DNA of 64,000 nucleotides from assembly GCA_032622095.1 (NCBI GenBank), contig CP136065.1, forward strand, positions 36,306,732 through 36,370,731, in the 5' to 3' direction. The first letter of the stretch is position 1. Each line of letters begins with the position of its first letter. This document shows, piece by piece, positions 1 to 63,855 of the stretch. The position numbers were made by a program, and so were the translations under genes. The notes beneath the pieces are model-generated. The model worked only from the letters and a program-made list of their open reading frames with translations. It was not told where the DNA came from and ran no database searches. This stretch comes from Siphonodentalium dalli (lineage: Eukaryota; Mollusca; Scaphopoda; Gadilida; Siphonodentaliidae).

Positions 1-207
1 GATCAGTCCCAAGTTTCATACGCATGATCAAGATGAGATGAAATGGGGGGGGGGTTGCGATGATGCAGAAATTATCCAGATTTTGTTATAAAAAACATGG
101 ATTGCAGAAACCGTCTCGGATTGATGATGATGATGATTGTTTATTTGTATAATATTTACAAGCTTATGACAATGGTGATAATAAACAGACAAAAATGATA
201 TTATACA

Positions 208-247
208 GGAGCGACATGGCCCAGATGGGCCGTCTTCCTGTCGCCCC
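208..247 (-). other. Conserved 3' UTR hairpin of LINE-A, copy 1
   Basis: On the minus strand, arms GGGGCGACA and TGTCGCTCC pair over nine positions (one G-U) around a 22-nt interior. The interior itself is 7 nt (GGAAGAC), a 4-bp stem GGCC/GGCC with a 6-nt loop, and one A. The same spacing is found in the other two LINE-A copies, with compensatory changes. The inferred role is recognition of element RNA by its own RT. Confidence 0.65.
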
Positions 248-665: not shown

Positions 666-3600
666 TTAAGCCACTTTACAGTCTTGACAAAATGAGTTGT
701 TGCATTTAACTTTTGTTGCATATTTCAATAAATATTTATTTTTCAATTCTTTTTTAAACCTATTTCGAAATCTGATATTTTTCAGATTTTTATCCCATAA
801 GTTCCATATGCACGGAAACGCGTGTTTGGGTAGTATAGAAGTAAATGTCGTTCTCGGGGTTAATGCTTTCAAATTGCCAGCTTGTCGAGTATTAGCAGTT
901 GTATATTCAAACGAATTATCAAATGATTTCGGAAGGTTTCCTTTTGTCCAATCAAACACAAAAGTGGCCGATTGTAACCGATACATGTCATAAAATTTTA
1001 GAATCTTTTCTTTGCGAAATATTGGCTCTGTGTGGCTTCTATACGTTCTGTTTGCCATGATACGGATGTCTTTTTTCTGTTGTTTGAAGAGAGTATTTCC
1101 AGTGTCAGCATGACCCCAAATTGGCAACCCATATATGAGATGACTGTGGATTAGAGAAAAGTATAAAGTTTTCAAACAGTTTTTGGGAAGTATACGTTTA
1201 ACCTTATTGATGCAGTACATTGCATTGGATATCCGTGTTTTTACCATTGATATGTGATATTTGAAGGTGAGATTTTCATCAATATTAATTCCGAGGAATT
1301 TCATACATTGTTCCGGTCTAACGTTTCCAATTCGTGTTAGTGGCCCGTTGTTCAGTTTTATTTTAAGAATATTCCATTTAAAGTCATTATTAGTTGGATG
1401 TAGTAACATGTACTTACTTTTTGTTATATTAATAACCAATTTATCGCTACAGCACCAATTGTGAACTTTTTTCAATTCTGAATTAACTTGTTTTTCAATT
1501 TGGCGGTGGTCATTTCCAGAAATATGGAGGGTTGTGTCGTCTGCAAATGAAAGTATGTTCAAACACGTGCTATTGTGTATATCGTTGACCTATATGAGAA
1601 AAAGTAGCGGCCCTAACATATATCCTTGAGGCACCCCACAGCTAATATTGAGCATATTTGATTTTTCATGTTCGATTTCAACATATTGCTGTCTTCCCTC
1701 TAAGTAACTCGTGAACCATTTCTTAGTTATGCCCCTGATACCATAATGGTCAAGCTTTTGTAGGAGTATTTCATGACTGATTGTGTCAAAAGCCTTTGAA
1801 AGGTCAATAAAGATTGCTAATGTAGAGTCTCGTGTCTTTGTGTCGTTATTTTCAGCAATATGATGTAATAAATGAAGTAATGGGTGGGTTGTTGTGTGGT
1901 TTGCTCTAAATCCAAGTTGGTTTTCGTGGAGGATATCAAATTTTGTCAAGAACGAGTTTAAACGTTTATGCATAAGTTTTTCCATAATTTTAGAGAAAGC
2001 GGGAAGAATACTTATTGGTCTATAATTTTCAATATTTTCACGGGCACTATTTTTGTATATTGGTACTACTCTGGAGATTTTCATTTTTTTAGGAACAACG
2101 CCTTGTTTGAAAGATAAATTTACTATGTACGAAAGCGCGTTTGCTGTTTCATTTATAGTACTTTTCATTAGCTTCGTTGATATATTAAAAAAGTCTACAC
2201 AGATTTTATTGGACATTTTGGTGCAAATATCTTCAATCTCCGACAATGATGTTTCTGAGAGAAAGAAGTTCTTTTGGTTTTTTTCAGACATATAATCAAG
2301 AGGTTGTATATCCTGAATTTTCTCTACGTTATTAACTGTATTCTGACCTATTGTTGCGAAATATTCGTTAAATGATTGCGCAATAGTTGCCGGATCTGAA
2401 ATTGTTCTGTTTCGAAATTATATATTTTTTGGAAGACTATGTGAACATGTTGATAATTTAAGAGCATCTTTTAATATGGTCCATGTTCGTCTCATGTTAT
2501 TTTTATTTTCTTCGAGAATTGAGTTATAGTACTGGTTTTTGCTCTTCCTCTTCAGTTGTTTGAATATTTTACAATATGCTTTATATTTATCTATATTGAT
2601 TGTCGATGGCTGTGCTATTTTTTTAGTGAATAGCTTACTTTTATTCAATGATGATTGCAATAAGCCGTTTGTAATCCAAGGTTCTCTTTTGATATATTTT
2701 TTCCTTTGTTTGGTGTATCTGAGAGGGAAGGCTTGCTCATATGCTGATATATACTGTTCTATAAATTTTTCATACGCTTGTTCTGCTGAATTGCAGCCGA
2801 AAACTGAGTCAAACGATAGACTGCCTAGGATTTCTTTAAATGAATTTATATTTTTTTCATTAATTATTCGAATGGGTTCTAGGGATTGTTGTGCTGAGTT
2901 AATATAATTTTTTATGCAATTCATTTTCAATGTAGTACGTTGCAAAATGATCAGAGACATCTGATAATATAATTCCGCAGTCATAGTTCCACTTCGAGTT
3001 CGTATGGATATGGTCAATTAATGTTGCTGAGTATTCCGTGACCCAAGTAGGTTTTGTAATCACAGGGAGGTAACCCCGCTCAAATATGTTATCTATAAAA
3101 TCTCCGGTTTTCGTATGATTATCAGAGTTTAGTAGGTCAATGTTGAAGTCCCCAATCTAATATGCTTTAGCGTGCGATTCATTGAGTTTGACCATTATGG
3201 CATCTATATAAGTCATGAATTCATCGATATCTGCTCGTGGGGCTGTGTTAGGTCTGTATATTACTCCTACCACATATGAGTTATTTTTGTTAGGATTAAT
3301 TTCAACAAATAGCGTTTCTGCGACGTGTGGTATAAATATAGATAAGTCATGTCTATTTCTAAATGTTATGCCATTTTTTATAAATAATCCAACCCCACCT
3401 CTACCATCGTCGTTATCTGGACGCGTTGCATATTCGAAAGGTTGATACCCCGGTAATATATATGTTTCCTTGATCCGGAATATTTCAGATAGGGCTATGA
3501 CATCGAAGATATTGTCGTTGTTTTGGATATTACATAATAAGTCTTTGAATGAATCCCAGTTCGCATTTAGACTTCGGCAGTTAAGGCCTAATAATGAGGT

Positions 3601-3777
3601 GCCTTTCTTTGATTGTTTTATATTGGCCCGGAATTGAGTGGGTGCATAATAATCACAAGAGTGGTTCATGAGTTCGTATGGGTCGATTTTTTCATCACAG
3701 TCATCTCTCCCATATCTGTTTGTGAAGTCATATGTTTTACCAGCCTGGAGTTCACCAAGATTTATTTCACCGATCAT
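666..3777 (-). pseudogene. LINE-A copy 1 ORF2: APE endonuclease + reverse transcriptase, frameshifted
   Basis: The protein is split into open pieces at 3777-3157, 3017-2418, 2291-1590 and 1562-666. The first piece is the endonuclease: LLGLNCRSLNAN, then IALSEIF, then VVGVIYRPN. After a stop near 3158 the frame continues with GDFNIDLLN and the SDVSDHF block. The RT follows, with NYRPISILPAFSK, FIDLSKAFDTISHEILL, CGVPQGYMLGPLLFLI and the catalytic FADDTTL box just after a frame change near 1562-1590. The C-terminus ends in KCNNSFCQDC. The protein copies element RNA into DNA at a nicked target. It opens with a plausible ATG at 3777. Several lesions make it non-functional. Confidence 0.88.
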
Positions 3778-3990
3778 GATATTTATTGTTTTCCTTTTTT
3801 GAGTTATTACTAAAGCCCAATTGGTGACATTCTAGAATTATGGAGAGGCGCTCGAGCATAATTAGACATAGGTGGTTTGGATATTCAATATCAAATACAT
3901 TCTGGATAAACATAAATATAATTTAGAAATATATTGGTGGGAAAGCGTTGCATTCGTTTGTTCCATTGTATTAAAATAAATAAAATATTT

Positions 3991-15674: not shown

Positions 15675-18380
15675 TTAACGTTTAGTGAGGATTGTCTTCC
15701 TGATGCCAAGTTCATTCATTAGGATCGTGCCATTTAATCTATTCAATGTTTCTTCAGCTAGATAGTTTAGTCTATCCTGTATAAGGGGGACGTCTGCCGT
15801 CAGATGGAGTGCCGTTATAGGGGTTCTAGATGACGCTTGAAGTGACGTTCTGATGGCCATATTCTGTGCGACTTGTAATTTATTAAGCAGGGTAGGTTTA
15901 CAAGATGCTCTGATGAATTGTTTGTATACTTTGATTAAAGTGGATTGATTGACCCCCCACCCAGTGCCCCGAAGTCTAGTTAAAAGGGTGGTTCTTTGTC
16001 TAGCTTTGGTGGAGATATTGGTTAGGTGCTTTTTAAATTTAAGGCGTGAGTCTAGAGTGAATCCCAGGAAAGTGGCTTCGTTAGATTGTTTGATGGGTGT
16101 GCCAAAAAGAGAGAGTTCATGTTTGGAGTAATTGCGTTTGTTGCCAAATACGATTAATTGCGTTTTCAGTGGATTTAATTTGATTCTCCATTTGGAACAC
16201 CATTTTTCTAGTCTATGGAGCTGGTTCTGAAGTCTATTTTCTATACATTTTACTGATTTTCCCGACGTCCACAGTCCAAGGTCGTCAGCAAATTGAGATA
16301 TTTGGACACTTGATGTAGGGTCATTGGGTATGTCATTAACGTATATTAAAAATAGCAGAGGGCTGAGTACTGATCCTTGGGGGGTTCCGGCCTTTAAAGG
16401 GATGCTTTCTGAAAGTTCATCATTTATTTTTACTTTTATAGTTCTATGTGTGAGAAATGATGATAGGAGTCTAACCATTTTTTGGGGGAGGTCGGTTGTC
16501 ATTCTTAGTTTATACCTTAGGCCATTGTGCCACACTGAATCAAACGTTTTTTTTACATCTAAGAATATAGCCCCGGTTTCCCATTCTCTATTCATTGCCG
16601 TTTTTATATCCTCTGTGAGTATATATACATGTTCAATGCCCTCTTTACCTTCCCGGTAAGCCCTTTGGTACTTATTGAAAAAGTTGGTACCCTCGAGATG
16701 GGATATGATTCTGCTGCTGATTACCCGTTCGAAAAGTGTGCCCTTACATTGTAATAGGCTGATTGGTCTATAGTTTGTGGGTATCGTGTGGTCTTTCCCA
16801 GGCTTAGGTATCATGGTTCCTATTGCATTTTTCCATATTTTGGGATAATAGCCTAGCCTCATGCATTTAGTATACAGTTTTGTAAGTCTATTAAATAGGA
16901 TTTCAGGGGCCTGCCTAAGTATTCCATAGGTGATTTCATCATCCCATGGGGCTTTGTTTGGCTTGCCTTTCTTGAGATTTTGACTCACTTCCTGATTAGT
17001 GATTTCGGCTACTAGAGGATCCCCATCTCCCGGCTCCTCTACCTCTTCCAGTAATGGTGAGAAAAAGTCAACGTTATCGTCGATGAAGTCATTGACTTTA
17101 TGTTTGAAACCCCTATTAAATATATCCCCTTCGTGCATTTTGTGGATATCCCTGAAGCTTTCGGCGAAGATTTGGGCTTTCTCAATATTATTTTCTGATT
17201 TTTTCCCCATTTTTGCCTTGAATCTGTTTTGAATTTTCCGCTTCTGATTTGCATTGGCCTGTTAAGGTTTTGAATGTTTGCCATAATTTTGTTATCCATT
17301 TCCCGTTCATTAAGAATGGATGTGATTTTTTCCCATGATTTGGCTTTTTCCTCTTTGATTTTTTGTTTTACTTGCCTATTAAGATTATTGTAGAGTGTTT
17401 TATATTCTGCATTGTCTGGGTTTTTAGCCGAAACCCTCATGGTTTTCCTTTTAAGTCTTATGAGTGCTAAAGTTTCGCTAGAGACCCTCCAGGTATGGGG
17501 TTTTACCTCCGTTTTGGGGCAAGCTTTATCTAGAGCGTTTGTTAGACATTGACATATATCTAGTGCAGCAGATTCTAGTTCCTTTGGTCTGGTAAGAGGG
17601 GAATTTGAAAGGTTGCTTATTATTTCTTGTTGAAAGAGATTCCAGTCTGCTTTGCCGAGATTTCTGCGAAGTATTGATTTAGTTGTTTTCGGTTTTACTT
17701 TTGTAATTGTTAGTTCGAGCGGGAGGTGATCGCTTCCAACATCGGTTTCGATTCCGAGTTTAGCAGCGGTCTCCGTAGCGAACGCGTGATCAAGAATGTC
17801 CCAGTTGCCAGTGGTTCCGCAGTGGTGTGTTGATTCTCCTGAATTATTTAAGTGGATAAGCTCTAGTTTTTCTTGAATATCAAAAAGAACATCACCGAAT
17901 TTATTTGTTTGCTTGCATTTAAAGAATTGATGTTTGGCATTAAAATCGCCGGTAAAGATGCAGCTTTTGATACGGGATGTGAATAATTTAAGGGTATCAA
18001 TGTTGGGAGGAGAATTGTTTTTTCCCGGCGGGTAGTACATGGATACTATGGTTGTTTTTATGTTATTTAATAACATGTCTATGGCTATGACTTCATCTGC
18101 AATTGTTCTAATGTCCACTACTCCGTTTTGCGTTTCTATGGTTTCTACTGGTTGGTATTTGATGCCGTGGCGGACTAGGATTGCCACCCCGCCTCCGTGG
18201 GCCGTACGATCTTTCCATAATAAATTGAATCCTGGGATTTTAATTTTTGATTTTTTGACTAGTTTAGTTTCATTTATGGTTATTACTTCCGGTTTAAAGT
18301 CGCTTAAGTATTCTATAAGTTCTTGTTTGTGGCCTCGTATGCCATTAATGTTAATGTGTATGATGTTGAATGTATGGTAG
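15675..18380 (-). pseudogene. LINE-B ORF2: endonuclease + reverse transcriptase, one main frameshift
   Basis: The endonuclease opens near 18380 with ININGIRGHKQELIEYL and EVITINETKL. It continues with HGGGVAILVRHGIKY, FTGDFNAKH and the VGSDHLPLEL histidine block. The frame changes near 17215, where the lysine-rich linker passes to MGKKSENNIEKAQIF. The RT follows in one 511-codon frame: NYRPISLLQCKG, FLDVKKTFDSVWH, TPQGSVLSPLLFLIYVND and the catalytic FADDLGLW. It ends TILTKR at 15675. About 900 residues in total is normal for EN-RT proteins of this group. No RNase H is visible. Confidence 0.88.
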
Positions 18381-18427
18381 TTGAGGTTGGCTTAAGGTTG
18401 TTAGCAGATTCTATATTGGCATTAAGT

Positions 18428-19953
18428 TTATTTCTTGAGGATATCTCTGCTGTAATTTCGAATGGAGGATACTGTAATATTAGTTCTGTAATGTTTATTT
18501 ACGTTGTTTGTAACACTATTCAAGATATTTATGTTATCATTCTGTTCCTTGAAGTCTCTAAGGATTGAGTTGATCGTAGCGGCCAATCGGACAGCGTCGG
18601 TGGCGTCCCCATGTGTTTTAGTTACTGCTGCATATGTCATTTTATTTGCCTTAGTTTCATCAATTGCAGTCCTGAGGTATGTGCAACCCTGGTAAGTGGC
18701 TGGGTGATCCCCCTGGCAGTTGGTACATTTTTGATTGTCTCTTTGCAATCTTTGTATGAGTGGTGTCCCGCACATTTTTTACATGTCTGAGTGGTGTTAG
18801 GGCAATTTTCGCTCTTATGGAAGAAGTCCAGGCAATTGAAACATTGAGTGGGCTGTATTGGTTGTTTGTATTCGACTACTCTGTGTCTAAATTTGCTAAT
18901 TCCCAATGTAATTCCCTGAAGTAAGCGATCTTTTGAATGCAAGTCTGGGCATGTAACTTTTATTTTCCTGGTAGGTGCATCCCCATTTTTAGCTGATTTC
19001 ATCCTTGTTGCGGTGTATTCAGGGCCCAAGGTTTTATTGACGTCTTCTACGGGGATCTCTGAATTAACCCCACATATTAAGACATTCAGGTTGGCTGTTT
19101 TTTCCGTTTCTCTTTTTCCCTTTGTTAGTCTGAAAGTGACTTTGGATAGTTGGGGTATTTCCCTCGATGCCTTGTTCATAAGATAGTGCATTGTACGTTC
19201 TGTGTGGGGGTATATTAAGAGATTGTTGCTTTTTGTAGTTTGCGCTTCGAAAGAGTGGTCTTTTATTAACTTTGAGAAGAAGTAGGGTTTTTTTTCATTT
19301 CATTTGTAGCATTTTCAACGAATAATGTTAGGGTCTTTCTGGGATGAGAACTTGTCGGTTTGGGTGAGGTGTTCTGATTTGCCCGCATTCGTTTCCCTTG
19401 ATTATCAAAGTCAGGTTCTAATTTTCGTTTTGCTGAGTGTTTTGGACTTGGTTCCAGGGTGAAATGGTGTTTCCGTCCATTTCTATATCAATTGAATTGG
19501 ATGAGTCCAGTGGAGACACTGGGTTTGGAACGGAAATGTGTTCAAAATGAGAAATATTTCTGGAGGTGTTGAGATCCCCTGTATTACTCATTGGTGATGA
19601 AGATCTGCTCGTTGATGATAGTGGGGTGTTGTTTGGCATGGTTCTTCCCTGTACGACTTTAGGTGAAGTCGGTTGAGAAGTTGATTTGTCGATAGTGCTG
19701 GAATTGGCTTTAAAGGAGACGCTGAGTTGGTTGGTGCCAGGTCGTGCAGAAGGGGTGGGGTTGTGCTTATTGTGGGTGCTTTTGATTTTATGCTTACCCT
19801 TGCCTTTGTTCTTTCTCGAAAAATTCTAAGTTCTTCGTCCTTTGCTGCGAGCATGTCGTAGAGTTTGGCGATCTGCTTATTCATATCGCTAATTTCGCTT
19901 ACTAGAGTATCTATTTTAGCCAACAGAGGCGCATCCTGGTTTGTAGATGTCAT
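18428..19953 (-). pseudogene. LINE-B ORF1: gag-like nucleic-acid-binding protein with CCHC knuckles, frameshifted
   Basis: Open pieces run 19953-19588, 19639-19418, 19191-18637 and 18775-18428. The N-terminal part has a heptad-like stretch (LVSEISDMNKQIAKLYDML), then a Ser/Thr/Pro-rich linker. The third piece carries CFNCLDFFHKSENC (CX2CX4HX4C) and CKKCAGHHSYKDC (CX2CX3HX4C). The fourth has CTNCQGDHPATYQGC (CX2CX3HX6C). Three knuckles after a linker are typical of ORF1 proteins of Jockey/I elements, which coat element RNA. At least three frame changes make this copy dead. Confidence 0.82.
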
Positions 19954-34116: not shown

Positions 34117-34814
34117 CGAACTAATACAAATACAAGACAACCAAACCCCATAGCCCTAGAAACACCAAGAACTGTTTGGTGTGGAAATCTACCCCATCAT
34201 GCCTTCGCAACCATATGGAACAATCTAAAAGATGAATACACTTCGGGCCAAACAAGACATTCATTTAGGAAGTGCTTAAAAACAAACTTGGTAAAGACAT
34301 ATTCTGAAAATGTGAAATGTAAAAATTTTGGATGTCCGGACTGCACTGTTTAAGATACTGCAATCATATCGATTGTGCACCTATTGTAAATTGTATACGT
34401 ATATTAACAAAACACTCGCAATAATGCAATTAATGAATCCCAGACACGTGATATTTCCCCCAATACCTCACTCACAAACTACCTCCCCGGTGAACCACGC
34501 AAACATATTTTAGTTATTGTTATGAACAATGGTCAGGGTTGGTCCCCAGAAAACTCAACATGTCTGTAACACGCCCTTGATACTATTTCCACATGCGACG
34601 ATATAGTCTGTGCGCTCACGCGGAGATGAACGCTCATATACGCCATCATTAAACAATCATAACGATTCCTATACCACCGAGAATGGCAGGAAGACAGCCT
34701 GGCAGGGCTATGCTATCCCCGAGCAATATACAACATACCTGAATTTATTGTTGATAATATGATTGCTATACGTGTGTGTATGTTGTGAATAAAGTTATCA
34801 TATCCTATCCTATA
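34117..34814 (+). mobile_element. LINE-A copy 2: 5'-truncated 3' end
   Basis: It begins inside the last part of ORF2: NTNTRQPN, then FATIWNNL, then TRHSFRKCLK, ending KCKNFGCPDCTV and a stop at about 34352. The 3' UTR carries the family hairpin and ends in TATCCTATCCTAT, as in copy 3. Severe 5' truncation is normal for target-primed reverse transcription. Confidence 0.88.
34680..34719 (+). other. Conserved 3' UTR hairpin of LINE-A, copy 2
   Basis: Arms AGAATGGCA and TGCTATCCC pair at seven of nine positions around 22 nt. Inside are GGAAGAC, a 4-bp stem AGCC/GGCT with a 6-nt loop, and one A, the same arrangement as copies 1 and 3. Confidence 0.65.
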
Positions 34815-35472
34815 TAAGTGGATCAAACTTGTCCTCCAATCCCAATGCCAATTTGTATTGTAATATACTTGTTGGTAATAAATATGTTTAAACCAACTGA
34901 CGAGTAAAATTATCGAACGTTGGAACGCTGATCGGGACTAATCTTTGCGATCAGTTTATCAATAATTGATCTGCATATAAAGCTTTGATGTTTCAAGCGG
35001 TATATTAGCAGCCAGGGAATTAGAATGTCTGATATACATTTTGATACCTAAACTAGGCCTGTTGAGCCAATCAACCCGAAAACTTCATTTGATTACATGA
35101 ACCTACACTTGTTCTATTCATTAATCCCATTCTATGATAACGATATGCAACGGTCATTCGATAACATGAAATAGTGCCAGGTGTACCCACATGTATTATT
35201 GTTGCGTAAACGTGATTCGGAATCGGGGGACGAGGAATGAAGATGAATCGGTGTCTGTGACTGATATTGATAGAGTTTGAAAATTTATTTAATTAAATTT
35301 ACACCAATAAATAAGTCAAAGAGTCTTAGTTATCGATGGAAAATTTCTTTGCGGGTGCAAACAACGCATAGTTACAAGGAACGTCGTCGCACGTCTTATA
35401 GAAGCCGATATTAGTTTCACTTCTCATTTATTGATTAAAGTATGTGTTATGGAGGTTTTGGATCAAGTAATG

Positions 35473-45417: not shown

Positions 45418-47174
45418 TCTATTATATATTTTGGAAGATCTGTCTGTGTGTGTGTGTGTTCGCGATGAACTCGAAAAAGGCAGAGCCGATTTCGATAAAA
45501 CTTGGAATGTGGGGGTATTTTCGGCCGGGGGTGGCATGGGCCTATTAACTTATCCGTGCGACGTGACCTTGACCTTGAAATCGGGTCATTTCAAGGTCAA
45601 ACGCCAGAATATCACGGGATTTCGATGAAACTTGGTATGTGGGGGTACTTTCGTATGGGGAGTCCCATAAGCATTTTCATTTGCCTGAGCGACGTGACCT
45701 TGACCTTGAATGGGGTAACTTCAAGGTCAAATCGCCAATTTTGATGGGATTTCGACGAAATTTGATACGTGGGGTTACTTTTGTCCACTGATTGTTTTGG
45801 ACGGGTCAAATCGTGACCTCGACCTGACCTTGACCTTCAAAATGATCAATTCAAGGTCAAATCTGGTAAACCGGATGGATTTCGACGGGCACGTTTGTCG
45901 GGTACATTTGTCCGGGCAGTGTTTTGGACTGGTCAAATGGTGACCCCACTTGACATTGACCCTCAAAATGGACAATTCAAGGTCAAAGCCCGGACGAAGT
46001 CGGGTCACCTTCTAGTCTATTATATATTTTGGAAGATCTGTTTGTGTGTGTGTGTAAAACTTGGTATGTGGGCGTACTTTCGTATGGGGAGTCTCATAGG
46101 CATATTCCTTTGCCCGTGCGACGTGACCTTGACCTTGAAATCGGGTCAATTCAAGGTCAAATCGCCAATTTTGATGCGATTTCGACGAAATTTTATACAT
46201 AGGGTTACTTTTGTCCACTGGGTGTTTTGGACGGGTCAAATCTTGACCACGATCTGACGTTGACCTTCAAAATGAACAATTCAAGGTCAAATCGGGTAAA
46301 ACCGGATGGATTTCGACGGGTACTTTTGTCCGGCACTTTTGTTCGTGCAGTGTTTGGACGGGTCAAATCGTGACCCACTTGACCTTGGCCTTCAAAATAG
46401 ACAATTCAAGGTCAAAGCCCGGACGAAGTCGGGTCACCTTCTAGTCTATTATATATTTTGGAAGATCTGTCTGTGTGTGTGTGTGTTCGCGATGAACTCG
46501 AAAACGGCCCAGCCGATTTCGATGAAACTTGGTGTGTGGGGGTATTTTCGGCCGGGGGTGGCATGGGCCTATTAATTTGTCCGTGCAACGTAACCTTGAC
46601 CTTGAAATCGGGTCATTTCAAGGTCAAACGCCCGAATATCACGGGATTTCGATGAAACTTGGTATGTGGGGGTATTTTCGGCCGGGGGTGGCATGGGCAT
46701 ATTAATTTGCCCGTGCGACGTGACCTGGACCTTGAAATCGGGTCATTCCAAGGTCAAACGCCCGAATATCACGGGATTTCGATGAAACTTGGTATGTGGG
46801 GGTACCTTCGTATGGGGAGTCTAATAAGCATATTCATTTGCCCGTACGACGTGACCTTGACCTTGATATCTGGTCAATTCAAGGTCAAATCGACAATTTT
46901 GATGGGATTTCGACGAAATTTTATACATAGGGTTACTTTTGTCCACTGAGTGCTTTGGACGGGTCAAATCGTGACCCCGACATGACCTTCACCTTCAAAA
47001 TGATCAATTCAAGGTCAAATCGGGTAAAACCGGATGGATTTCGACGGACCCGTTTGTCGGGTACTTTTGTCCGGGCAGTGTTTTGGACTGGTCAAATCGT
47101 GTCCCCACTTGACCTTGACCTTCAAAATGGACAATTCAAGGTCAAAGTCCGGACGAAGTCGGGTCACCTTCTAG
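45418..47174 (+). mobile_element. Helentron-like units g, h and i (AGGTCA-rich core)
   Basis: Units 45418-46015, 46016-46444 and 46445-47174 start TCTATTATATATTTTGGAAG plus a TG-rich tract. They end in CCCGGACGAAGTCGGG (4-bp stem) and TCACCTTCTAG. The core repeats alternate GATTTCGA.GAAACTTGGTA with TGACCTTGACCTTGA and TCAAGGTCAAA. These three units share the termini plan but not the core of units a-f. Confidence 0.75.
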
Positions 47175-47426: not shown

Positions 47427-48559
47427 GTAAGTCTCCAGAATATCGAACCACTAACTCCCAGGCCCATTTTCCGATACCAATACCCGAAATCAATTACGGC
47501 CCAACACAACCGGATGATGTCGAACCCGTCACTTGGACTATCGACAATGGGTTTAGACTATGGTTTTCGTTGTCAAAAATCGGTTTAAACCGAGGGGTTT
47601 AGATTCGCCAAGTTTAAACGGGACATGACAATTTTAACTCCCGATCCCGTTAACTTCAGTACCGACTAACAAAGGAACACAATAAATACCCACAATAAAG
47701 CAACATTTCGTTCCATGTCGTTAGATTTCCGGACGAATTAAACCCGTTGGCCGGATTCGTAATCTCCTGTTTAAACCTCCGAGTTTAGCCATGCAGTCAA
47801 ACTACCATCTTACCAATCGGACCAAAAGATAGGCCGATATAATAGTTATTGACACATCATAAATTATCGCGAACGCGTGCACGCTCAATGGATTTATTTA
47901 TTGAGAAACAATTATCGCTCATGGACCATTAATCCGATCTCATTCTGGGTTTAAATTAATCTAACAAATGGCATGTCTCTCAACACGAGTTTCACGCGCT
48001 GTTCATCACTTTGTCTGTGATAGATTTTCTGCAAGACGCTTTACCCACAAAGATAAAATTTTGTGTATTTACATGTATATCTGTATGTATTAAAGGATAT
48101 AGGAGCTATCTATCTGTATGCCCGTCCGCAACTGTTCGCCCATACACCTGGACCGATTTCAACCAAATTAGGTGTGGTGTCTCGGATGGTATAACGGCGT
48201 TAGGTTTTAAATTGTTTTTATTTAAAATAAGAAAAATTTAATTAAAAAAAAAAATTAAAAAATTGTGTTGTTAAATTGAATAAGGAGTTTAATCGTGTTG
48301 AATAAAATATTACATGCGTTGCTTTTTTTCAGTGTCATAAATTTCCCAGGTTTTGAACTGGTGGAATATTATGGGAATTTATGGGCGTAGCCAGAGTAGA
48401 GATTCGTCGCATGATCTACATCAAAATAAGTGATCAAATTCGACTCATATAGCAATATAAGTTTAGGATTACAAACTATGTGTATAGCATATCTGGTATT
48501 GTAGTAGCATCGTTTTGGTGTCAAAATTAAAACGTTGAACCCTTAGTCGGCGCTTAGAT
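47427..48559 (+). other. Receptor intron, GTTTAAAC-rich sequence
   Basis: The intron here is rich in GGTTTAAACC-type words. GGCCGGATTCGTAATCTC at about 47750 is matched in inverse orientation near 51980, beyond the LINE-A insertion. A possible Helentron-like head (GTCCGCAACTGTTCGCCCAT) is near 48125. No gene. Confidence 0.5.
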
Positions 48560-51202
48560 ACGCACTCACTCGAGATTATTATAATCGGCTGCGTTTACAG
48601 ACCAAATACCGCACCAAAGGCCAACATTGATAAATTTTTGAAAAAATTCGACGATATTTTAGAAAAAATTTGTAACCACAAATCATATATATCAGGAAAC
48701 TTTAATATTGACCTACTCAATTTCAACTCGCATACAAAAACGAATGATTTCATAAATAACATTTTCACAAGAGGATTCGTGCCAAGGATTACTAAACCTA
48801 CCCGAATGACTGATCATTCAGCAACTCTCATCGATAATATATATACCAATAACCTACAAGGCGACTGTAAATCTGGCATAATCACATGCGATGTTTCCGA
48901 TCACTTCGGCATATTTTATTCAGAATCTAACCAAAAGAGACAAAACAGCACCAATAATAACGAAGCAACCACTAATCAAAGAAGTTTTAGTCCTGATAAC
49001 ATAATTATATTCAAAAATCTTTTAAAATCGTGTACCTTTGACTCCGTCACATCTTGTAGAAGTGTCGACCAAGCATATGAAATCTTCTTAGATATCTATA
49101 TGAATGCATATGAACTAGCTTTCCCTATCAAAAGCCGACATATACCCAAAAAATTCATAAAACGCAATCCTTGGATGACATCCGGATTGATTAAGTCAAG
49201 TATTGTTAAGAACCAGCTATATCTACGCAAATTAAATAAACCCACGGAAACGAACGTAAATAAATATTTGAGTTATCGTACCTTATATAATAAACTAATC
49301 AGAAAGAGTAAAAATATATACTATACAAATATTCTAGAAGTAAATAAAAATAACTTAAAGAAAACATGGGAAATACTTAAGGGTGCATTGAAGATGAATG
49401 GAAACACAAATAATAACCCCAAGACATTTACCGAAAACGGAATAGAACTTGAAAATTCCAAACTCATATCGGAAAAGTTCAATGACTTTTTCTCAAAAAT
49501 TGGGCGGGAAACTAGCCAACTCCATGAACATGAAAATGACTCTCATTTTACAGATTTTCTCCATAACCGCAGACCAGACGACATCAATTTCAAAATAATT
49601 CCGACCTCTATGCAGGAAATCATCCTCACATGTTTCTCTATGACAGGGAAAGTATCAAGGGATTTCAATGGTATATCAACTAAACTTATCAAGGAAACAA
49701 TTGAGGAAATAGCCCCAGCATTATTGCATATTTTTAACTTGTCCTTAGAGCATGGAATAGTCCCTGACAAAATGAAAATTTCTAAAGTAGTTCCGATCCC
49801 AAAAAATAATACCACTCATGAAATTTCCAACTACAGACCTATCAGCATTCTTCCAGCTATCTCTAAACTTCTCGAAAAAATAATGCATAAACGATTACTA
49901 GACTTCTTAAATGAACAAAACATACTTTATAAACACCAATACGGCTTCCGCCCTAATCATTCAACCTTCCATCCTGTATTACACCTCCTCGATCAAGTTG
50001 TCTCAAATAATGACAAAATGACAAGAGATTCCACTTTAGCTCTATTTCTCGACCTCTCAAAAGCATTTGACACGATAAATCACGATATTTTACTTCATAA
50101 ACTAGATCACTATGGTATACGAGGCACAGCATACTCATGGTTTCAGAGCTACCTGAAAAATAGAAGGCAATATGTTGAACTCAATGGTATCAAATCTGAA
50201 TTGACGGAAGTGACGTGTGGAGTGCCCCAGGGATCAATTCTGGGACCGATAATTTTCTTAATTTACGTTAACGATATGTCAAATTCGACAACAATGGATA
50301 TCTTATCATACGCGGACGATACGACTCTAGTAACTGGTGGAAAAAATGGCATCCTTGTAGAAAGTTATGTGAATAATGAGTTACGCAACATATTTGCTTG
50401 GTGCTGTAGCAATAAGTTAGTGATCAATACTAAAAAAAGCAACTATATGCTGATACACCCAGAGAACAATGATGACAAATGGAACTTTATAAAGGTTTAC
50501 TTAAATAATACGGAACTAAACAAGATAGGAAATCTTGAGCACGAATCCTCCACAAAATTCCTAGGAATCCATATAGATGAAAACCTGACTTTCAAAAAAC
50601 ACGTGTCCTCTGTTTGTTCAAAAATGGTGAATGCCATATACCACATCAATAAAGTTAAACACTTCTTTCCTGGTAGCGCACTTAAAACATTATATTATGC
50701 TCTAATACAAAGCCATTTAGTCTACGCTGTTCAAATATGGGGACACGTCCCTGCGGTCAAAAAAATGTTCATGCTTCAAAAACGCGCAATACGAGTTATA
50801 TGTAATAAGAAATATAGAAGCCACACAGAACCTCTCTTTAAAAAAGAAAATATACTCAAAATCTACGACATCCACAAAGTACAAGCGGCTGTTTTCATGC
50901 ATGATTGGTATCATATGCGTTTAATAGAATCATTTACCGACATATTTTCCAAACGGAAAACAGGACCAGCCACCCGACAAAAGCACCCACTATTTTAAAA
51001 AAAACCAAGAACATCTTGGTCCCAACAACTACCATTTCATTCCTTTCCAACCATATGGAACAACTTAGATAACGAATTTACATCATACCAATCCAGACAC
51101 ACATTTAAACGACGTTTACATGCCGATTGCATAAAAAAATATGCTACAACAATTAAATGCAACAATCAAAGATGTCCCGACTGTGTAGTAGCTCCTCAAT
51201 AA
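48560..51202 (+). pseudogene. LINE-A copy 3 ORF2: endonuclease (partial) + reverse transcriptase
   Basis: The frame is open from about 48560 to 50998. It contains the end of the endonuclease (SGNFNIDLLN, then CDVSDHFGIFYS) and a full RT: NYRPISILPAISKLLEKIMH, LFLDLSKAFDTINHDILLHK, CGVPQGSILGPIIFLIYVND and the catalytic YADDTTLV. At about 50994 a T and A run (TTTTAAAAAAAACC) brings a stop. In another frame the protein continues PRTSWSQQLPFHSFPTIWNN to KCNNQRCPDCVVAPQ and a stop at 51202. One indel therefore separates it from a full C-terminus; the missing 5' part also makes it incomplete. Confidence 0.9.
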
Positions 51203-51433
51203 GTGACTTCCCCTATACCGCAATCCTCAACCTCACTCAGTACATTCCTACTCGACTTTCAAGGAACAACCCACTGACAAGAAAGAGACAAACCATCGAG
51301 TAACCAATAAACAATTTATCTAGACGTATACCCTCCATGTATATAATACAACCATTTTGTGATACATAATTATATAGCCGTGCATTGTACAAGAAATCAT
51401 GACCGCCTATCATAACATCTTTTCATTTTTAAG

Positions 51434-51473
51434 GGGGTGGCAGTAAGACAGTCTAGCCTGACTATGCCACCCC
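51434..51473 (+). other. Conserved 3' UTR hairpin of LINE-A, copy 3
   Basis: Arms GGGGTGGCA and TGCCACCCC form nine perfect pairs around 22 nt. Inside are GTAAGAC, a 4-bp stem AGTC/GACT with the 6-nt loop TAGCCT, and one A. It sits about 67 nt before the TATCC tail. Confidence 0.7.
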
Positions 51474-51639
51474 TCGAATATACAACATAATATTTGTCAA
51501 ATGTATTATGCATTAATATGTGTATATTTAAATAAAATATCCTATCCTATCCTATCCTATCCTTATGTACAGCTCCACACTTTGACTGATTGTTTGACAA
51601 TTCTAAACAGCAATTAAGAAAAGACGTATTCGTCATCTC

Positions 51640-62885: not shown

Positions 62886-63855
62886 TTACTCGGTGGAGAA
62901 ATTTTGATATTCCTTATACGCGTCACTACGCCAATCGCCGTGAGTTTGGATTAGTTGCGATGGGACTTGACAGTGAAAGGCATAGGTTGCGCCCCCTCGT
63001 CTAAAACTATGAGAAGAGTAAAGGGCCGGATTTCTTCCGGACTGAGCAATAACTGCTTTCAGATTGTTTTGAAATTGTCTATAAGTGATTGGGATGAATG
63101 TGCCCAGCCGATAGTGTGCACATAATGGCATAGAGTTAGGTCCTGTGTTTATTTCACGCATGTGCTTAAAGGCAGTGGCTGGACACAGCGTGCTGTTGGG
63201 GATTTCAACTAGGGGAATTGTATGCACTCTTTCGCCGAATTGGTTGGTTTTAGACCACCTCATAGCCACGAGTAATAACCCTTGTGCTTCGAAAATGTCG
63301 CTCCTATGGAGTATTTTGGACATATCTGATTTTGTGGATTCTGGTACTAGGTTAGATTTCCTGCTCATCAGAAAGAAGGCGAATAGAAATAGGCACCAAA
63401 GGGTTCCATCAATGGGGTCGTTGCGGTTAAAACAAGTGTGTAGTTCAGCTATAATAAGGCAGGTGTCATGGACGCCGCTTTGGCAGATATTGTGCATTTC
63501 CAGTGATGGCTCTGAGAAGAAGCTTGAATCGAAAATTGGAATCAAATTCAAAGGGTAGATTTTGATATAAATGCATGACTTTAACCCCGTTCACGTAATT
63601 TCTGATGGAGTCGACTGGCTTAAGCGATCGGCTTAAAAATTGACAATATAGGCATATTGTTTCCAAGCAAGTCGGGGTGGGGTTAAAGGAGAAGTAAAAA
63701 CAAAATAATAAATGGGTCCGCCATTGAACTGTGAGGTTCTTGTTAGTGCCGCTCGTATATGCGGAGCTGATTGATGTCAAGTGTTCTGCATGCAACGCGT
63801 GAACCTCGGCGTCTGGAATTAAGGATAGTATATCACCAATAGTGCGAGAATTCAA
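62886..63855 (-). pseudogene. Tyrosine recombinase of the Ngaro-like element, one frameshift
   Basis: Two open pieces overlap: 63855-63466 is the N-terminal core-binding part (TSGTNKNLTVQWRTHLLF, then LPFEFDSNFRFKLLLRAITG) and 63551-62886 the catalytic part. The catalytic part shows LMSRKSNLV (first Arg), HSFRRGGATYAF (HxxR), HGDWRSDAY (His/Trp and Tyr) and a YKEYQNF end. The two pieces join near 63530-63550 by a frame change. The enzyme integrates the circular DNA copy of the element by site-specific strand exchange without target duplication. Confidence 0.85.

Follow-up and report, generated by a model that had tools for sequence, protein, structure and literature searches.

The stretch of Siphonodentalium dalli DNA analysed here (64,000 nucleotides, referred to as the window) contains the 3' parts of three LINEs, each with a two-tier hairpin (hairpin I) in the 3' UTR behind an ORF2 (Table 1). 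ORF2 combines an endonuclease with a reverse transcriptase (RT) domain (RVT_1 in Pfam), its PDB matches include L1 and R2, and in most copies that retain the ORF end it is closed by a C-x4-C-x2-C cysteine motif. The ORF2 of the third copy has an in-frame stop at 50996-50998 (+). The sequence-only reading had taken the three LINEs for copies of one element; they rather represent three multi-copy families of one LINE clade, named fam1, fam2 and fam3 in the following.

At all three sites hairpin I was found with the parts ascribed to it. Its interior measures 22 nt in each case, the inner stems read GGCC/GGCC, AGCC/GGCT and AGTC/GACT, and the 9-bp outer stem is perfect in fam3, contains one G-U pair in fam1 and two mismatches in fam2. 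When folded alone, the hairpins of fam1 (z -4.6) and fam3 (z -3.2) were better than dinucleotide shuffles, while that of fam2 was no better (z +0.2); hairpin I was also missing from the minimum-energy folds of the fam2 window copy and of a further copy, L152. An alignment of 20 fam2 copies showed that the common outer stem of this family is GGGGATGGCA/TGCTATCCCC, 10 bp with one G-U, and the two mismatches are private decay of the window copy. Against R1, a model trained on seven sequences drawn from these three families, the fam3 hairpin scored 105.9 bits, this copy being itself part of the training set.

Table 1. Positions of the LINE features in the window.
Feature	Family	Position	Strand	Remarks
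ORF2, 5'-truncated	fam3	48539..51202	+	partial endonuclease, RVT_1, C-terminal C-x4-C-x2-C end
Hairpin I	fam3	51434..51473	+	outer stem GGGGTGGCA/TGCCACCCC, bulge GTAAGAC, inner stem AGTC/GACT
Stem II	fam3	51477..51528	+	arms 51477-51484 / 51521-51528, 8 bp
AATAAA	fam3	51531..51536	+	directly after stem II
(TATCC)n microsatellite tail	fam3	51538..51563	+	
ORF2, 3' end	fam2	34300..34353	+	reads YSENVKCKNFGCPDCTV, then stop
Hairpin I	fam2	34680..34719	+	outer stem with two private mismatches
Stem II	fam2	34730..34786	+	arms 34730-34738 / 34778-34786, 9 bp
AATAAA	fam2	34788..34793	+	after stem II
(TATCC)n tail	fam2	34800..34815	+	
ORF2, endonuclease part	fam1	3157..3831	-	19.9 bits, under the Pfam cut-off of 24.5
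ORF2, RT and C-terminal part	fam1	666..2417	-	in-frame stop at frame junction 1589/1590
Hairpin I	fam1	208..247	-	outer stem GGGGCGACA/TGTCGCTCC, bulge GGAAGAC, inner stem GGCC/GGCC
Stem II	fam1	146..207	-	arms 198-207 / 146-155, 10 bp, perfect, abuts hairpin I
AATAAA	fam1	140..145	-	after stem II
(CAT)n tail	fam1	120..137	-	

The architecture of hairpin I thus stands as first described, but a second helix directly 3' of it had been overlooked. In all three window families the bases that follow hairpin I pair with the bases just before an AATAAA (stem II); in fam3, five further base pairs (ACATA/TATGT) form inside this helix beyond a bulged A. The minimum-energy fold lacked stem II in L146 and, for fam1, in one of the two stretches folded. 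In most fetched families the 3' arm of stem II is followed by an AATAAA-like site, and tails of other families consist of (TAC)n, (CATT)n, (CTAT)n, (CATAGT)n or (CAAT)n. Across the clade, hairpin I comprises an outer stem of about 8-12 bp, a 7-nt bulge on the 5' side, an inner stem of 4-5 bp, a loop of 5-7 nt and one A on the 3' side. Together, hairpin I and stem II form a module of about 110 nt that closes the 3' UTR and is followed by a family-specific microsatellite tail.

The three families were then traced in the genome (2.23 Gb in 9 contigs). Counting the copy in the window itself, 24 of the 40 scored fam3 matches were free of mismatches over 271 bases, and fam3 is a very young family. 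The other listed genome matches were 95-100% identical for fam1 and 76-94% for fam2. In the aligned copies of fam1 (n = 10) and fam3 (n = 6) the hairpin was intact or nearly so, the young fam1 copies displaying at most scattered single changes in the stems; disruption of the stems in young copies, named beforehand as an outcome that would speak against a selected structure, was absent from these 16 fetched copies. Among the 20 aligned fam2 copies the hairpin was partially deleted in L008, L014 and L017, and the others carried scattered changes. Two local clusters were observed. On contig C1 (112620869-112641088), five fam3 3' ends of 100% identity are spaced by 915, 916 and, in a second group, 1831 bp, as if a LINE 3' end had joined a tandem repeat. 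Four clustered fam2 3' ends on contig C3 (216386995-216393977), with neighbour spacings of 1156, 2775 and 2777 bp, are a local tandem duplication.

To the core pattern CAGKAAGAC-N14-ATG the genome yielded 3466 matches, compared with 491 for the same pattern read backwards as a control; an N15 variant with CAGGAAGAC yielded 213 against 120. The first 100 listed N14 matches comprised 40 distinct 14-nt cores, of which 28 form all four inner pairs and 8 form three of the four. Summed over these cores, 141 of 160 inner pairs are formed, compared with 116.2 (sd 3.2) when the 3' arms were shuffled (0 of 10000 shuffles as high). R1 was applied to fetched stretches only, the genome itself being searched by DNA, patterns and families. 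The model matched 33 of 40 fetched pattern flanks at E<0.001 on the expected strand; these flanks represented 27 hairpin-like N14 cores, two that are not hairpin-like (L064, L065) and 11 N15 matches. A core pattern was without a match in IMG/VR (0), where no relative of the RT was found either.

Several matches proved to be of other origin. The core AGTCTTGCCAGATT, which accounts for 14 of the 100 listed matches, belongs to another repeat: four copies with this core agree over nearly their entire length, and L037 is without an outer stem, while in the LINE copy L153, whose core is one base off AGTCTTGCCAGATT, the outer stem is intact. Cores such as ATATGCAATTGATG and TTATTAAAGATATA (L064, L065) were non-members, GATGTTAGCCGAGA and ACGGGACCAGGCGG were rejected for lack of pairing, and L114 and L115 are copies of another repeat. 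L101, considered as a long target-site duplication, was rejected as it sits in a tandem repeat. L068, L069 and L070 are copies related to each other, with a 7-nt loop, a different 3' end and an outer stem of up to 12 paired positions (L069); for L068 and L069 the upstream part gave no ORF2 match.

Conservation of the bulge cannot be demonstrated with a pattern in which the bulge letters are fixed, and copies were therefore also collected via ORF2. From 150 listed copies found with RVT_1, we fetched 20 chosen for distinct scores or distinct matched letters. The module was present in L131 (E 1.4e-14) and L136 (E 6.7e-19), the only two of this sample that group with the window RTs of fam1 and fam3; weak antisense matches to R1 in L118, L117 and L127 (E 0.005-0.02) were left uncounted. 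Two RT motifs searched as DNA, DHYGIRG (719 genome matches, 0 in the control) and a CGVPQG[ST]ILG-like motif (890 genome matches, 0 in the control), each provided 20 further copies with distinct scores or letters from among the first listed. In the DHYGIRG sample the module was present in 14 of 20 copies at E<=4.6e-11. As to the six misses, L145, L148 and L155 lose the ORF early, the stretch fetched for L139 stops within the ORF, the similarity of L143 to its relative L144 fades before the expected place of the module, and L138, a member of the nearest sister lineage, gave no module match in the approximately 600 nt after its ORF. The CGVPQG[ST]ILG-like pool includes distant lineages, and here 5 of 20 copies carried the module at E<=2.3e-7. 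L166 has a decayed version as judged by eye; of the remaining 14, six (L167, L168, L170, L175, L177, L180) extend beyond the 90% point of the ORF2 query, which the other eight do not reach.

Across the copies found by their RT, the bulge departs little from G[G/T][A/T]AGAC, and the apical loop is variable (for example TAGCCT, CATCTG, TGGCAG, AATCCT). In ten families from the RVT_1, DHYGIRG and window sets, with fam2 represented by L003, six of the seven bulge columns are invariant (mean 0.07 bits), compared with none of the six filled columns of the loop (approximately 1.37 bits). R1, which decided on presence, itself contains the bulge letters, so that very different bulges could be missed in this comparison. 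The base pairs of the ten representatives are predominantly canonical, with 124 Watson-Crick, 9 G-U, 3 A-C and 4 other combinations in 140. Variation of the bulge is exemplified by L147 (GGAAGGC), by L181 (GGTAGAC, with inner stem AACC/GGTT and a 5-nt loop) and by L174, where GGTAGAC is accompanied by a G-C closing pair in place of the A-U of the others, a compensatory change. The best reading of these data is that the conserved information lies in the bulge rather than in the loop, unlike in the eel and zebrafish elements UnaL2 and ZfL2.

The module follows the phylogeny of the RT. In a tree of ORF2 (39 rows, after six of 45 with fewer than 170 aligned residues were dropped: L145, L148, L155, L173, L179 and the other window LINE), the copies bearing the module fall into one clade with a support of 1.00, adjoining L138 and L139. 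L143 and L175 lie inside this clade, and no module was found in them; repeats fill the downstream part of L175. Comparison of 37 copies by blastn showed that different families often align over their last 110-130 bp only, from the hairpin on. Examples of such module-only alignments are L041 with L047, L053 with L116 and L043 with L051, in which the upstream 3' UTRs are unalignable; closer pairs such as L039 with L044, which match in ORF2 as well, and L043 with L058 are exceptions. In neighbouring lineages (L167, L168, L177, L180; L170, L178) the corresponding place, ahead of AATAAA and a repeat tail, is occupied by other hairpins, several of which look two-tiered by eye in single folds. Out of 200 shuffles each, 24 folded as well for L167, 7 for L168, 0 for L170, 21 for L177, 93 for L178 and 15 for L180, the fold of L178 thus being no better than shuffles.

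The window harbours a second, different LINE with endonuclease and RVT_1 at 15675-19299 (-). It is preceded by an ORF with a cysteine-rich stretch, recognised by eye and without a Pfam match, and in the RT tree its long branch joins outside the group formed by fam1 and fam3. No significant module match was found near it within the window.

That the stems change while pairing is kept had been read, from three copies, as a sign of selection on RNA structure. Paired changes were indeed found in both hairpin I and stem II, in pattern-found as well as RT-found copies, and covariation persisted in the larger sets. In alignment A3 (18 distinct rows: window, RVT_1-found and DHYGIRG-found copies), 90.1% of cells are paired, a value that shuffling lowers to 83.0% and sliding to 32-50%. 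Double-sided changes occur in 14 of 26 pairs (7.7 after shuffling) and in 36 cells (12.6 after shuffling). Further pair types were not in excess in A3 (27 against 24.6 shuffled; 71 of 500 shuffles as high). Alignment A4 (35 pattern-found rows, two being reverse-strand matches) gave 88.3% paired cells against 72.6% shuffled, 22 of 26 pairs changing on both sides (16.8 shuffled) and 151 double-change cells against 51.1. Both alignments were fitted to the model, which favours the model's structure. An alignment-free test was performed by swapping stem arms between families, with non-members kept in. For 34 representatives, pairing of the outer stem fell from 8.12 to 6.92 of 10 pairs, and for the 26 of them with an AATAAA-like site (the 8 others were excluded from this part) stem II weakened from -11.1 to -7.35 kcal/mol. 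The corresponding values for the RT-found and window subset (n = 10) were 9.4 to 8.49 pairs and -12.2 to -8.8 kcal/mol, and in none of the four comparisons was any of 20000 permutations as extreme.

The strictest test took account of the tree. Changes in hairpin I were re-placed on a tree of 46 sequences in 400 simulations, leaving out L037, L052, L064, L065, L074, L075, L076, L153, W2 and copies without an AATAAA-like site. The top four of 946 column pairs were all proposed pairs, with E values of <0.0025, 0.075, 0.15 and 0.3, and non-proposed pairs followed from 0.5 on; one pair alone reached E<0.05. Selection on the RNA structure is supported, yet under this test single-pair significance is limited to one pair. 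Together, these data indicate that the hairpin is a real, selected RNA structure belonging to one LINE clade.

We further compared the module with known 3' signals. Its likeness to the hairpin of eel UnaL2, to which it had been compared from the sequence, extends to the design, in which a microsatellite tail follows a 3' stem-loop whose asymmetric bulge lies 4 bp from the loop, but not to the details: conservation resides in the bulge and not in the apical loop, and there was no Rfam match in the 64-kb window at gathering score, nor any at E<=5 for 51200-51620. According to PMC5135761, the 3' end of UnaL2 and UnaSINE1 (L2 clade) forms a stem-loop, whose stem is interrupted by an internal loop, and continues in a short tandem-repeat tail. 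The apical loop of UnaL2 is GGAUA, a sequence absent from the loops found here, and its internal loop is small, consisting of a U-U mismatch and one unpaired C. The module differs by its conserved bulge of seven bases, its variable loop, its second helix with AAUAAA and the lack of a recognised SINE partner.

PMC5135761 also gives a consensus for stringent LINEs, with a 3' stem-loop and an asymmetric bulge 4-6 bp from a loop of 5-7 nt, and proposes an asymmetric-bulge stem-loop for stringent LINEs and human L1/Alu. The 7-nt bulge, 4-bp inner stem and 5-7-nt loop of the module agree with this consensus, and its structure is likewise kept by compensatory change, with weaker support from the tree-aware test. 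As compared with that description, the module stands out by a bulge sequence specific to the clade, by its second helix and by stems that covary across many families. For plant L1, PMC3747384 describes a 3' hairpin with compensatory changes, which resembles the module in having a variable stem and few fixed nucleotides common to related elements, but in which the fixed bases are a UCU in the loop and a CGAG flanking the stem on its 3' side, instead of a bulge. Stem-loops have also been predicted at invertebrate CR1-type 3' ends, in CR1-clade LINEs and the Vhc SINEs of bivalves (Matetovici et al. 2016, cited after PMC5135761); these are similar to the module by description and may overlap with it. 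We recognised no published description of a fixed long bulge with a free loop, a second helix and a lineage-wise change of the hairpin, the mollusc SINE/LINE study with the greatest likelihood of overlap standing outside this comparison.

Experiments have established for few elements how a LINE RT chooses its own RNA. The two zebrafish elements ZfL2-1 and ZfL2-2 (L2 clade), as described in PMC4176376, share with the LINEs studied here a 3' stem-loop, an ORF2 with endonuclease and RT, and a basic EN-RT linker with a PW pair. Their ORF2 protein binds its own 3' stem-loop via the EN-RT region, of which a conserved part contacts the stem and a variable part the loop; the stems are exchangeable, in one direction at about half the rate, and the two elements are distinguished by their loops (PMC4176376). 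Loop-based specificity of this kind sets ZfL2 apart from the module, in which the conserved part is the bulge. Five families here have in common a basic EN-RT linker, RE[PS]W[MI]TxG[LI][IL]xSSxxKxxL[YF]. The tail-binding region of the L2 clade (cTBR) is marked by conserved P, W, E, W and basic residues between EN and RT. By eye, these five linkers contain PW (SW in one family) and many basic residues; the later E and W of the L2 cTBR were not seen in them at the published spacing.

We favour the reading that the module is probably the 3' tag by which one non-LTR retrotransposon clade recognises its template in target-primed reverse transcription. A role in RT recognition, as proposed in the sequence-only reading, is likely though inferred; it agrees with the module's position, its restriction to a clade and the analogy to UnaL2 and ZfL2. 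In such a mechanism, the element's own ORF2 protein would grip hairpin I, perhaps by the basic EN-RT linker, and the bulge would provide the conserved contact. Stem II may close the RNA end and so bring the microsatellite tail to the RT active site, and reverse transcription would begin in the tail on nicked target DNA. More tentatively, since we would put this somewhat below even chances, the address read by the RT may be the clade-specific bulge G[G/T][A/T]AGAC and not the loop, acting jointly with stem II, whereas neighbouring lineages would keep the scaffold with other bulges and so diverge by a 'bulge code'.

A variant compatible with the template tag, though rather unlikely in our view, places the family address in the loop as in zebrafish L2, the bulge only shaping the stem or giving a general contact. 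The variation among loops would then reflect a separate preference of the protein of each family. Loops distinguish ZfL2-1 from ZfL2-2 in this manner (PMC4176376), and by eye the loops of one branch of the clade are more similar to each other than to those of other branches; however, loop length (5, 6 or 7 nt) and sequence shift among families while the bulge stays. It is improbable that the module instead serves a host factor, as a structured 3' UTR driving cleavage/polyadenylation, export or stability of the LINE RNA, in which a host protein binds the bulge and stem II presents AAUAAA. The purine-rich, nearly fixed bulge and the AATAAA-like site behind stem II in most fetched families would suit this role. 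However, the module tracks one RT clade (the two strong matches among 20 RVT_1-found copies both belong to it), neighbouring lineages carry other hairpins at the same place, neither of which facts a host factor would obviously require, and the copies examined end in microsatellite repeats, not poly(A). Mere common descent of the 3' ends, with pairing inherited in the absence of selection, is very improbable: the carriers are related and the tree-aware test is strong for one pair only, but double-sided changes affect many pairs in each of the two helices, and the module is alignable between families where the adjacent 3' UTR mostly is not.

This clade constitutes a natural mutagenesis set, in which many young and old families of one genome present the same scaffold with paired stem changes, a near-invariant bulge and free loops. 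If the bulge is the address, it would offer an alternative to recognition by the loop, and LINE-based target-primed insertion would gain a compact RNA tag.

A SINE sharing the tag was not recognised among the 37 copies compared, and no tRNA genes were detected in 20 stretches upstream of the tag. A B-box-like match in L058 was rejected as a SINE head as it sits downstream of the tag. No ORF2 match was found upstream in 28 of 40 fetched copies; 5' truncation would explain these, and non-autonomous elements are also possible. L058 and L109, which are 99.1% alike over 778 bp, combine the tag with internal repeats of approximately 93 bp, with no ORF2 match in the fetched part, and are either non-autonomous derivatives or copies with a long 3' UTR rich in repeats.

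Elsewhere in the window, an ORF of 234 aa at 62886-63590 (-) has no Pfam match and contains a stretch HSFRRGGAT...HGDWRSDAY, which we take to resemble a tyrosine recombinase. Related repeats that contain GACCTTGACCTT and AAGGTCAAATCGGG-like words form an array at 46000-47170.
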